This document shows, piece after piece, positions 57,034 through 64,000 of a stretch of 64,000 bases of DNA. Below the pieces are notes generated by a model. It was not told the DNA's origin. It ran no database searches and saw only the letters and a program-made list of their open reading frames with translations. The stretch's first letter is position 1. Each line of letters opens with the position of its first letter. A program made the position numbers and the translations under genes. This stretch comes from Chamaelirium japonicum (lineage: Eukaryota; Streptophyta; Magnoliopsida; Liliales; Melanthiaceae), in the NCBI GenBank assembly GCA_947650365.1, contig OX393550.1, positions 52,161,379-52,225,378 of the forward strand, read 5' to 3'.

Positions 57034-57169
57034 TATATATATATATATATATATATATATATATATATATATATATATATATATATATATATATATATAT
57101 ATATATATATATATATATATATATATATATATATATATATATATATATATATATATATATATATATATA
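57034..57169. repeat. (TA)n tract 1
   Basis: 136 bp of uninterrupted TA dinucleotides, left border of foldback module 1. Confidence 0.97.
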
Positions 57170-57523
57170 GTAGTGATACATTGCGGCGGGTAACGTGTGG
57201 CCTTAACGTGCGGCACCCCCTTCGGGGATATTTTCGAAATTTTTTTTGGGGGGGGGATTGATCACCTACCCTTGGATTGGACACACAAAAAATTTCAGCC
57301 CGATCCAAGACCCGTAGGCCGTCCAAATGTGTTGATCAAAATGGCGAAAAAAATGAACGACCGATAAAAGATCAACACATTTGGACGACCTACAAGTCTT
57401 GGATCGGGCTGAAATTTTTTGTGTGTCCAATCCAAGGGTGGGTGATCAAACCCAAAAAAATAAAATTCCAAAAATACCCCCGAAGGGGTGGCCGCACGTT
57501 ACCCGGCTGCAATGTATCACTAC
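57170..57523. mobile_element. Foldback module 1
   Basis: Begins (TA)GTAGTGATACATTG and ends CAATGTATCACTAC(TA). The arms of about 160 bp are near-perfect inverted repeats around a loop of about 35 bp. Shared arm words include CCCGATCCAAGAC and CCTTGGATTGGACACAC. It is bordered by TA microsatellites on both sides. Confidence 0.88.
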
Positions 57524-57657
57524 TATATATATATATATATATATATATATATATATATATATATATATATATATATATATATATATATATATATATATAT
57601 ATATATATATATATATATATATATATATATATATATATATATATATATATATATATA
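57524..57657. repeat. (TA)n tract 2
   Basis: 134 bp, pure TA. Confidence 0.97.
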
Positions 57658-58470
57658 CAGAGAGAGAGAGAGAAAGGGATGTTACGTTGCGCTGTGCGCT
57701 ACCGCCAGACAAAGTGAGCTGCGCTCAGCCCGGCCGTCCGATCGCGCGGATCGTATGCGAACCGGCTGAAATCCCATACCCGCCCGATTGCGCTCAGCCG
57801 ACTGTCCGATCGTGTGGATCGTATGTGAACCGGCTGAAATCCCGCGCCCGTCCGATCACGCTCAGTCCGGCCGTCCAATCGCCCGTGCAGCACACAGCCA
57901 CCCCCGTGTTTTGACCAGCCGCCCCCCATCAAGCCGTTCGTTCGATTCCCATCCGTTGGATCGATGGGAATCGAACGGACCAAAACATTTTTCGCTGTTA
58001 CTGTAGCGGCTACAGTAACAGCGAAAAACGTTGTGGTCCGTTCGATTCCCATCGATCCAACGGATGGGAATCGAATTAAGCGTTAATTCGATTCCCATCC
58101 GTTGGATCGATGGGAATCGAACGGACCACAACGTTTTTCGCTGTTACTGTAGCCGCTACAGTAACAGCGAAAAATGTTTTGGTCCGTTCGATTCCCATCG
58201 ATCCAACGGATGGGAATCGAACGAACGGTTGATGGGGGCGGCTGATCAAAACACATGGGCAGCTGTATGCGATCGGACAGGCGGGCAGAGCGCGATCGGA
58301 CGAGTGTGCTGATCAAAACACGGGGGGCCGGGAAGATCGGATGTCGGGCTAAGCGTGCACGGACAGTCGAAGGATTTCAGCCGGTTCGCATACGATCTGT
58401 GTGATCAGACGGCCGGGCTGAGCGCAGCTCACTTTGTCTGGCGGCAGCGCACAGCTTAACGTAACATCCC
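57658..58470. mobile_element. Foldback module 2 (hierarchical palindrome, about 0.8 kb)
   Basis: The outer ends read GGGATGTTACGTT on the left and AACGTAACATCCC on the right. The arms of about 400 bp meet near 58080. Each arm holds further perfect hairpins, including TTTTTCGCTGTTACTGTAGC paired with its complement (57989-58029 and 58134-58176). Four copies of a GATTCCCATCCGTTGGATCG-type palindrome lie around them. Confidence 0.9.
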
Positions 58471-58628
58471 TATATATATATATATATATATATATATATA
58501 TATATATATATATATATATATATATATATATATATATATATATATATATATATATATATATATATATATATATATATATATATATATATATATATATATA
58601 TATATATATATATATATATATATATATA
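58471..58628. repeat. (TA)n tract 3
   Basis: 158 bp, pure TA. Confidence 0.97.
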
Positions 58629-58993
58629 GGGTCGATCCAGTAAAAAACTCCTTATTTGTGAAACCTTGTGCGAAACCCCCCTAGAGGTTTCAGAATTTGA
58701 TGAAACTTGGTAGGCATACTACCTATGCCATATTGATCAACCTCACAAATTTTCATCAAATTCTAAAACTTCTAGGGGCATCAAATTTGATAATCAAGTT
58801 AATGGTTTTTATGAACGGTCGGTAAATTTTCTAATATTTGATGCCCCTAGAAGTTTACGAATTTGATGAAATTTTTTGAGGATGATCAACATGGAATAGG
58901 TAGTATGCCTACCAAGTTTCATCAAATTCTGAAACCTGTAGTGGGATTTTGCACAAGGTTTCGCAAATAAGGAGTTTCTCACTGGATCGGCCG
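58629..58993. mobile_element. Foldback module 3
   Basis: Inverted arms of about 170 bp. The outer part carries GATCCAGT.. AAACTCCTTATTTG; the inner part carries ATCAAATTCTAAAACTTCTA and its complement. TA tracts border both sides. Confidence 0.87.
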
Positions 58994-59086
58994 TATATAT
59001 ATATATATATATATATATATATATATATATATATATATATATATATATATATATATATATATATATATATATATATATATATATAT
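58994..59086. repeat. (TA)n tract 4
   Basis: 93 bp, pure TA. Confidence 0.97.
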
Positions 59087-59444
59087 GATAACGATCCAGT
59101 GAGATAACTCTTCTATGAGATAACTTTGAGAAACCTATCAAGAGGTTTTAGAATTTGATGAAAATTGGTGAGCATGCTCTCTATGGCAAGTTAATCATCC
59201 CAACAAAAAATCATCAAATTCTAAAACCTCTAGAGGCATCAAATACACAATTCAAATTATTGGTTTTAATGGACGGTTGATAAATCTTCTAACATTTGAT
59301 GCCCTTAGAGATTTTAGAATTTGATGATTTTTTTGTGAGGATGATCAACTTGCCATAAAGAACATGCCCACCAATTTTCATCAAATTCTAAAACCTCTAA
59401 TTAGGTTTCTCAAAGTTATCTCATATCTCACTGGATCGCTATCT
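59087..59444. mobile_element. Foldback module 4
   Basis: Begins GATAACGATCCAGTGAGATA and ends with the complement (CTCACTGGATCGCTATC). The inner core with TTTTAGAATTTGATGAAAAT is shared with modules 3 and 5. Confidence 0.88.
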
Positions 59445-61538: not shown

Positions 61539-62089
61539 AGTAAAAACCCCGTGCCCAAGGGCACGAAAATAATTTCAAGGATGACAAAAAACATTTTGAG
61601 GGCGGTGATAATATTTAAAGGGTGGCAGTAATATTTTGAGGGTAACAGTAATAATTCATGAGCAACAATATTATTTCGTGAGAATGGGAGGTCATAATAT
61701 TTCGAGGGTGGCAACGGAACATTTCAAGAGCGGTAACTATATTACTAGGGGGTCCAATAATTCGAGGGTGGCAACAGAATCCTGACGGCTGCCGATCCTA
61801 CTTAGCCCGACCGCCATGCAAACTAACGATTGTGGTGAGGTTTTAACTCGGAACCCTTCCTCCAGGTTGCTCTCTCTCTCTCACTCACTCTCTCTCTCCT
61901 TTGTCGGAGAGGACAATCCTTAGACGACCCAACCCAAGGCCTCACCCATGCTTTGGTGGCATTCGTCGATTGCCAACTATTTTCATCCCCTATCGATATA
62001 TATACAAACGAATGACTGTGAGGGTACAACCTAAAGACGACCCGATCCAAGGCCTTACCTATGATCTAGTGTCATTCAACATCTCTCTT
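61539..62089. other. Spacer between foldback clusters
   Basis: Not palindromic. It has short repeats of GAGGGTGGCAACAGAA-type and two partial repeats with GACGACCC(A/G)A(C/T)CCAAGGCCT (about 61922 and 62037). No gene is recognised. Confidence 0.55.
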
Positions 62090-62145
62090 TATATATATAT
62101 ATATATATATATATATATATATATATATATATATATATATATATA
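62090..62145. repeat. (TA)n tract 10
   Basis: 56 bp, pure TA, running into (GA)n. Confidence 0.96.
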
Positions 62146-62316
62146 GAGAGAGAGAGAGAGAGAGAGAGGAATGATAAAATGCGGCGTGTGCGGTGTCACA
62201 CCACAGCCGTCTGATGCACCCGCTGCGTGAGTGCAATGCACGCAGCGATGCATCAGATGGCTGCGATACGACACCGCACGCACCGCACGCCGCATCCTAA
62301 CACGCACCGCATCCCC
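62146..62316. mobile_element. Foldback module 9 (family of module 6)
   Basis: A (GA)n lead, then AATGCGGCGTG pairing with CACGCCGCAT. The inner CCGTCTGATGCAC / GTGCATCAGACGG-type words are shared with module 6. Confidence 0.86.
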
Positions 62317-62458
62317 TATATATATATATATATATATATATATATATATATATATATATATATATATATATATATATATATATATATATATATATATATA
62401 TATATATATATATATATATATATATATATATATATATATATATATATATATATATATA
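62317..62458. repeat. (TA)n tract 11
   Basis: 142 bp, pure TA. Confidence 0.97.
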
Positions 62459-63169
62459 GGGGAGGGATACTCTTACTCATGGCCTCTTACAAGTAGGGAT
62501 TACTAATGATCCGAGCCGTCCGATCAATTTTGATCGAGGGCTGAGATCAACCCTCCTCTTTCTCTCTCACCTAAACCCAGCCCCCTTCTTCCCCGACCTC
62601 GACCCCATCCCCTCCCCCTCCGGCTCCGGCTCCGGCGATCCCCCCCGCAGTCCCGACCCCGACCCCGACCACTTCCCCTCCGGCGACACCGGCGCGGGGC
62701 GCGGGCAGGCGGGCCGGCGGGGGGCGCGGAGGGCGCGGAGCCGGCGGGGGGCGCGGGCAGGCGGAGGGAGCGGAGCCGGCAGGGGGACGCGGGCAGGCGG
62801 AGGGCGCGGAGCCGGCGGGGGGGGCGGGCAGGCGGGCCGGCGTCTGAGGGGGTCGGGGTCAAGGGGTTGACGTCGGAGGAGGTCGGGGATGCGCCGGAGG
62901 GGCTCGGGGCTGCGCCGGAGGGGGTCTGGGCTGCCGCCGGAGGGGAGGGGGTCGGGGCTACGCCGGAGGGGAGGGGATCGGGGGGGTCGGGGCTGATGGG
63001 GGGGGGGGGGTCGGGGCTGGTGGGGGGGGGGGGTCGGGATTACATTGAGAGAGAGAGATAGAGAGAGAAACAGAGAGAGATGATCTGGACCATCGAGATC
63101 GGAACAGATGGTCCAGATCATTAGTAAGTGTCCATGAGTAAGAAGCCATGAGTAAGAGTATCCCTCCCC
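62459..63169. mobile_element. Foldback module 10 (family of module 7)
   Basis: GGGGAGGGATACTCTTACTC pairs with GAGTAAGAGTATCCCTCCCC. The C-rich left and G-rich right interiors resemble module 7 but have diverged. Confidence 0.88.
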
Positions 63170-63190
63170 ATATATATATATATATATATA
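63170..63190. repeat. Short (TA)n tract 12
   Basis: 21 bp of TA leading into (GA)n. Confidence 0.9.
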
Positions 63191-63614
63191 GAGAGAGAGG
63201 GCTGTTACGTTGAGCTGTGAGCTGCGGTAGGAGAAAATGAGCTGCGGGTATTTTGACACCCTTACAAGTTTTGGAATTTGATAAAATTTGGTGAGGGTGT
63301 TGTCTAGGGTAAGATTATCATCCTCAGCAATTTTCATCAAATTCCAAAACTCTTAGGAGGGTCAAATAATCGAAGCAAAATCTGCAGATTTTAACGGTGG
63401 CTATGGACGACAGTTTTGCTTCGACCATTTGACCCCCCTAGAAGTTTTGGAATTTTATGAAAATTGGTGAGGATGATCATCTTACCCTAGACAACACCCT
63501 CACCAAATTTCATTAATTTTCAAAACTCCTGGGGAGCAAAATACCCGCAGCTCACTTTGTAAATCGGCAACTCACAGCTCACTGTAACATTCCTCTCACT
63601 CTCTCTCTCTCTCT
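63191..63614. mobile_element. Foldback module 11 (core shared with module 5)
   Basis: The outer TGTTACGTTGAGCTGTGAGC pairs with CTCACAGCTCACTGTAACA. The inner core carries the same CCTAGACAACACCCTCACCAA units as module 5. It ends in (CT)n mirroring the (GA)n at its start. Confidence 0.85.
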
Positions 63615-64000
63615 CACTGTAACACGTTGCATGCATCGCACGCACGCAGTAATGCATCTGACGGCTGCAGTGCGATCACTGCTGTGGTGTCATATTATCC
63701 ATGCCCACCTACCTGTTCGTTGGAAGGGGGATAACACGGTTTTAATGGATCGGACGTTGGAGCCACACCGTATATACAGAGAGAAAGAGAGAAATGAGAA
63801 AGCCGTCCGATGCACCGTTGCTTGCGTGCGATGCATACACTGCATGCATCGCACGCAGCGATGCATCGAACAGCTGCGCTGCGATCACAGGTGGGGCGTG
63901 GGCCCTATAGTATTCGTGCCCACCGGACGGCTGCGCTGCAATCACGGCTGGGGCGTCGGCCCTTCGTCCCACCTACCTGCTCATTGGAGGGGGGATCATA
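63615..64000. other. Further hairpin-rich DNA cut by the window edge
   Basis: Contains ATGCATCGCACGCA-type inverted words related to modules 6 and 9, and two similar blocks ending CCCACCTACCTG (about 63700 and 63967). Probably a twelfth module, incomplete here. Confidence 0.55.

Follow-up and report, generated by a model that had tools for sequence, protein, structure and literature searches.

We analyzed a 64,000-nucleotide window of the 1.52-Gb genome of Chamaelirium japonicum (contig OX393550.1; C2:52161379-52225378), whose last 7 kb hold a chain of foldback elements separated by TA microsatellites. We found 12 pure TA tracts of at least 10 nucleotides (nt) in the window, all of them between positions 57034 and 63190. 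Eight are 93 to 158 nt long, among them the 136-nt tract at 57034-57169 that our tract scan placed at the left edge of the array, and the remaining four are 15 to 56 nt. From position 1 to 57033, the longest TA run is 8 nt, within the range seen in 20 Markov shuffles (7 to 9 nt). The tracts separate 11 foldback modules (M1 to M8 and M10 to M12) and one interval that is not a foldback (M9x). This confirms the alternation of TA tracts with inverted-repeat modules described in an earlier note on this DNA. The note also had the module ends meeting TA, which holds for most modules; the right neighbor of M12 is (TC)n. Related sequence runs on up to the end of the window, and TA tracts with matches of the M6/M10 type recur more than 5,000 bases past it. 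As we argue below, the array is very probably a chain of short nonautonomous transposons that insert into (TA)n, of the type called SaTar, most likely belonging to the Mutator-like element (MULE) group.

We aligned each module with its own reverse complement and found that all 11 scored above all 50 Markov shuffles, with 60 to 84% identity between the arms, which are thus terminal inverted repeats (TIRs). The predicted DNA folding energy of each module was also lower than that of all 10 of its shuffles. M9x (61479-62089, minus strand), which consists of (CA)30 followed by one end of a dispersed repeat that we call R, had a folding energy of −54.7 against a shuffle mean of −57.4. Because this is not below the shuffles, we do not count M9x as a foldback. 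TA runs within the 11 modules reach 4 nt at most, so that no module is interrupted by a TA tract. A search of the window at an E value of 1e-4 with low-complexity masking found no further module copies.

From left to right, the array begins with M1 (57170-57523, 78% self-complementary) and M2 (57658-58470, 79%), whose ends are common with those of M12. The center of M2 contains a perfect palindrome with 146-nt arms and a 3-nt spacer (57934-58228). The outer arms of M2, unlike this inner palindrome, are 28 to 100% alike per 25-nt bin, and the inner palindrome looks younger or recently homogenized. M3 (58629-58993, 84%) has a four-part core, and M4 (59087-59444, 79%) shares its ends and its core group. 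M5 (59565-59964, 82%) has a core that is 89% identical to that of M12 and ends that are unrelated. It is followed by M6 (59980-60141), which has (GA)n at its left; M7 (60265-60969, 77%), which has GGGG/CCCC ends; and M8 (61077-61458, 81%), which joins the core group of M3, M4, M5, and M12 to ends of its own. Between M9x and M12 lie M10 (62146-62316), a relative of M6, and M11 (62459-63169), a relative of M7. M12 (63191-63600, 79%) carries M2-type ends on an M5-type core. The window then cuts off M13 (63601-64000), which is more of repeat R and is partly related to M6 and M10. We found GGGG exactly at 6 of the 22 module ends and GG or more at 14.

We searched the genome individually for M3, M5, M7, M12, and M9x and scored the best 40 candidates of each search (out of 3,031 for M3, 4,236 for M5, 891 for M7, 3,622 for M12, and 1,460 for M9x); M1, M4, M6, M8, M10, and M11 were seen only as neighbors of other copies. 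For M3, M5, and M12, the 39 other copies scored in each case were near full length and lay on many chromosomes, with identities of 93 to 95%, 95 to 96%, and 91 to 97%, respectively. Among the best 40 M7 matches, most were partial. The earlier note had proposed dispersed copies, each beside (TA)n, and had allowed that the modules might prove unique to this locus. Dispersal was borne out for M3, M5, and M12, which recur at many places. We fetched 36 copies (7 of M3 and 29 of M12) and found TA within 150 nt on both sides in 32 and on one side in 4 (L011, L017, L018, and L020); the contig of L011 ends there. In 25 of the 36 copies, the fetched stretch matched one or more other foldback modules, whose order and orientation varied, and in 11 it matched none. 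In the 23 copies that lie outside R, flank matches longer than 250 nt reached at most about 525 nt, as expected, since the neighbors belong to the same families. Copies were also sought with four patterns in viral and prokaryote collections, and there was no match, a result of little weight for a plant genome.

M9x and M12 turned out to be parts of the larger dispersed repeat R, within which M9x-like pieces recur. We call the stretch between M9x and M12 the R site and compared it in 13 other copies of R. In the window, this site starts with a TA tract of 28 units (62090-62145) and contains two inserts, M10 and M11. In nine of the 13 other copies (L010, L011, L012, L015, L017, L018, L019, L021, and L030), the site is empty and holds only (TA)12-93 and (GA)n. 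Three copies are singly filled, each with a different type of insert that we judged by eye to be a foldback: the insert of L014 begins GGGTCAGG, that of L020 begins GAGGAATGATAGG, and that of L016 is of the M5 type. The left context of the remaining copy, L013, differs, and we left it unscored. The four filled copies, the window included, all have the insert within the TA part, and the (GA)n beside M12 was left in place. We also found an M1-like element to the right of M12 in L019 that L010, L012, and L015 are without. One TA site can thus be seen in many copies of R at different stages, empty or with one or two elements, which provides an internal record of chain growth.

Repeat R may itself be a mobile element. 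In the window (61539-62089) and in L010, L014, L015, and L018, its terminus is a hairpin followed by TTTTTACTAGT, beside TA or other dinucleotide runs. The hairpin with ACTAGT is exact in L010, L014, L015, and L018, and the CTAGT-type terminus lacks CT in the window copy. The anchor of this end was present in 9 of the 12 other R loci tested and not in L020, L021, and L030. Helitrons have a 3' hairpin followed by CTRR and insert between A and T. The end of R resembles such a 3' end on the minus strand, which makes R a candidate Helitron by comparison of the 3' end only.

The earlier note had described at least eleven different modules from several unrelated families. There are indeed 11 foldbacks, and they fall into about five sequence groups when compared with one another, but eleven unrelated families are ruled out by shared cores and shared ends. 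M3, M4, M5, M8, and M12 have a common core of about 260 to 310 nt, both arms of which are hairpins of their own, so that four similar segments alternate; the cores of M5 and M12 are 89% identical, and those of the other pairs are 70 to 81% identical. M6 and M10 are about 80% alike, M7 and M11 have a similarity of only about 60% along their length, and M1 stands apart from the others except that it matches M8 weakly in the center.

The ends of the modules follow a different pattern. M2 and M12 have about 55 nt of their ends in common, and their ends scored 22 to 30 against each other, compared with a null 99th percentile of 11 (500 shuffles). The ends of M3 and M4 scored 13 to 22. In contrast, M5/M12 (6 to 8) and M5/M3 (4 to 7) were at the level of the null, and the ends of M8 reached a score of 12 with no other module. 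We concluded that one core carries at least four different ends. We also compared the differences between arms and found 6 concordant sites and 1 discordant site for M5/M12 and 5 and 0 for M3/M4; the other eight pairs gave no clear sign. These counts are a thin signal, which suggests that the foldback core may predate the change that gave M5 and M12 different ends.

In 23 of the 36 fetched copies, the module is flanked by an inverted pair of runs, GA on the left and TC on the right, and a single copy is direct, with GA both left and right. Among the 12 left over, a run flanks just one end or neither, and one of them has GA on the right only. The 13 copies within R are all inverted pairs and share one common history. 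Among the 23 copies outside R, 10 are inverted, 1 is direct, and 12 are of the other kinds. Insertion into an existing (GA)n run would yield direct pairs; the GA runs therefore seem to belong to, or to grow from, the element ends. The same reasoning is unreadable for TA because TA is its own complement. We raise, tentatively and as a doubtful possibility, that the microsatellite is brought along or generated by the elements themselves and that, in addition, one foldback core has been passed between unrelated sets of ends, so that different transposases could move this core into the same TA chain.

We found that MULE transposase domains (PF10551) are abundant in this genome; 150 of 1,214 candidates were scored, and those listed are above the cutoff. 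We fetched five transposase loci (L049 to L053). At L053, an M8-type end (41 nt, score of 26) adjoins a TA tract and faces the gene, with about 2.1 kb between this end and the MULE domain downstream. The score of this end exceeds the null, as 500 shuffles reached at most 18 and the ends of the other modules reached at most 9. This hints at an autonomous partner. The same locus (C7:14344000-14352900) also holds, at 5807-8901, a dense array of foldbacks and TA tracts with modules of the M8, M5, M6, and M12 types, which begins about 2.1 kb from the MULE domain. L050 and L051 have M11-type ends by TA near a transposase gene, but we rejected them as partners, as the stretch that they share at 95% stops short of those ends. 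L049 and L052 yielded nothing useful as a partner.

We propose that a short foldback element would insert into a (TA)n tract and leave TA on both sides. A later element could then use one of these tracts and come to lie next to the first instead of within it, and a chain of uninterrupted elements would grow. A MULE transposase acting in trans probably moves the elements, the TA tracts may lengthen after insertion, and the four-part core may have arisen once and received different ends later. This reading rests on the dispersal of M3, M5, and M12, on the TA flanks of the M3 and M12 copies, on the R site that is empty in some copies and differently filled in others, and on the uninterrupted state of every module in the window. 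The class of microsatellite-targeting, nonautonomous elements that the earlier note had inferred is supported by the same observations.

Several points weigh against this reading. The empty sites, which the note had expected in relatives, were found in R copies of the same genome and are paralogous rather than orthologous. L011 and L012, which differ little, may represent a single locus that entered the assembly in duplicate. The note had also held that each insertion supplies a new TA target; TA does lie on both sides of the inserts, but growth of the tracts was not shown, as the TA totals of filled and empty R sites did not differ significantly (P = 0.15). MULEs make target duplications of 8 to 11 bp, and one of 9 to 10 bp would be unreadable inside TA. 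We examined the parity of the flanks in the 10 modules with TA on both sides and found that 7 agreed with a duplication of even length and 3 (M4, M5, and M11) with one of odd length, and even parity is also produced by a plain palindrome. As for the transposase, the opposite end of L053 was not found in 800 further bases, the sole inverted pair around the L050 gene is 48 nt long and is not tied to the M11-type ends, and no complete MULE with module-type ends was shown.

We weighed three other explanations. One is that the palindromes are artefacts of assembly or of foldback reads, and the perfect palindrome in M2 speaks for it. Assembly joins are unlikely, because the arms of the modules differ by 16 to 40% and because M3, M5, and M12 recur near complete at many places with 91 to 97% identity; we regard this explanation as scarcely credible. 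Another is that the foldbacks are mainly passengers, copied as arrays by larger elements such as the Helitron-like R or by segmental duplication, rather than inserted as single modules. Consistently with this, M12 lies within R in 13 of the 29 other copies fetched, so that part of its copy number is carried by R, and M6-M7 and M10-M11 occur in the same order in the window. The remaining 16 M12 copies, however, lie outside R and beside TA tracts, and copying of whole arrays does not fit one R site that has no insert in some copies, one of three different foldbacks in others, and two in the window. M7 and M11 are also only about 60% alike, compared with about 80% for M6 and M10. We therefore consider the passenger role improbable as the main explanation.

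The third is that the elements make the microsatellites: they would insert at ordinary sites, their purine-rich ends would then seed the growth of (GA)n and TA, and TA would follow from insertion rather than serve as its target. The excess of inverted over direct GA pairs described above, including that outside R, favors this. However, the GA result concerns GA and not the self-complementary TA, and the copy with GA on the right only is contrary to the rule. The empty R copies, moreover, carry (TA)12-93 without an insert, which indicates that TA was present there to serve as a target, although this place adjoins M12, which is an element too. We think it rather unlikely that TA is a result of insertion only, and this explanation and insertion of SaTar-type elements into (TA)n are not fully exclusive.

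The earlier note had regarded a serial chain of several families, with palindromes inside palindromes, as new. Such chains have already been published (PMC5907723, PMC8449440, and PMC4486113), and we compared our array with these and one further paper. SaTar arrays in guayule, rice, sorghum, and citrus are described there as unrelated nonautonomous MULEs that are linked by microsatellites and never nested, with empty TA sites between rice subspecies and a sorghum cluster of 8 as the largest met (PMC5907723). Our array resembles them in its short TIR elements and its linear, nonnested layout linked by (TA)n and other microsatellites, and within the window none of the 11 modules interrupts another. 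It differs in having 11 foldbacks in 6.4 kb and one core with several unrelated ends. We also did not find the 10-bp target duplications, which are unreadable in TA, and have no more than a hint of an autonomous partner. MuTAnT of Medicago truncatula is described as a single family that inserts into (TA)n, with a four-segment foldback, distal GGGG/CCCC of variable length, 9-nt duplications, and a Jittery-like putative autonomous member (PMC4486113). By that description, the four-part core of M3, M4, M5, M8, and M12 is alike in form, as is the GGGG at 6 of the 22 ends, although all six belong to other modules than these five; unlike MuTAnT, the chain here combines several families.

In pineapple, the Ac-mMITEs/mt-MITEs are reported as high-copy elements in (TA)n that form nonnested clusters; 22% and 16.5% also lie beside GA or CT runs, and their two families (510 to 570 and 210 to 270 bp) share ends and not interiors (PMC8449440). 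Compared by this description, our modules differ from these two families of other lengths. Micron of rice and TAFT/TAFTA of maize, as described in PMC5907723 and PMC4486113, likewise lie in (TA)n. MULEs with several TIRs repeat terminal sequences within the element, as our modules do, but their extra TIRs are mostly tandem and their duplications are readable, whereas in our core both arms are hairpins in their own right (PMC3310237). In the parts of the SaTar, pineapple, MuTAnT, and tandem-TIR papers that we consulted, we did not meet inverted GA pairs or an exchange of ends, which is no proof that they are unpublished; a narrow literature search for exchange of ends found no report and proves little. 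The kind of array is already known in other plants; here, sister copies of one site show several stages of its growth. Less expected are the single core with unrelated ends and the (GA)n flanks as an inverted pair.

The rest of the window contains two Copia-type elements that are 96% alike over 4.9 kb (9614-14492 and 48420-53290) and a third relative at about 4256-7763; the best named protein match of the Copia gene is from Platanthera (72 to 73% over about a third of the query). Pieces of a Gypsy-type polyprotein with protease, reverse transcriptase, and integrase domains are split over several open frames at 16529-19908, with the best named match from Vitis (63%); the protein searches with the Copia and Gypsy genes yielded nothing but relatives among plant retrotransposons. 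We also found a direct duplication of 3.97 kb that is 97% alike (23052-27021 and 29669-33592) and, on the minus strand at 36122-37071, two exon-like pieces that resemble a plant methyltransferase.

The array shows, in good resolution, how microsatellite-targeted transposons form chains in a large plant genome. Work on SaTar elements has raised the question of whether these elements only use the flanking microsatellite as a target or also make or carry it, and the inverted (GA)n pairs are relevant to that question. If the elements do make or carry it, the run beside each end would be part of the inverted terminal structure, every insertion would carry a fresh target with it, and the chain would feed itself.

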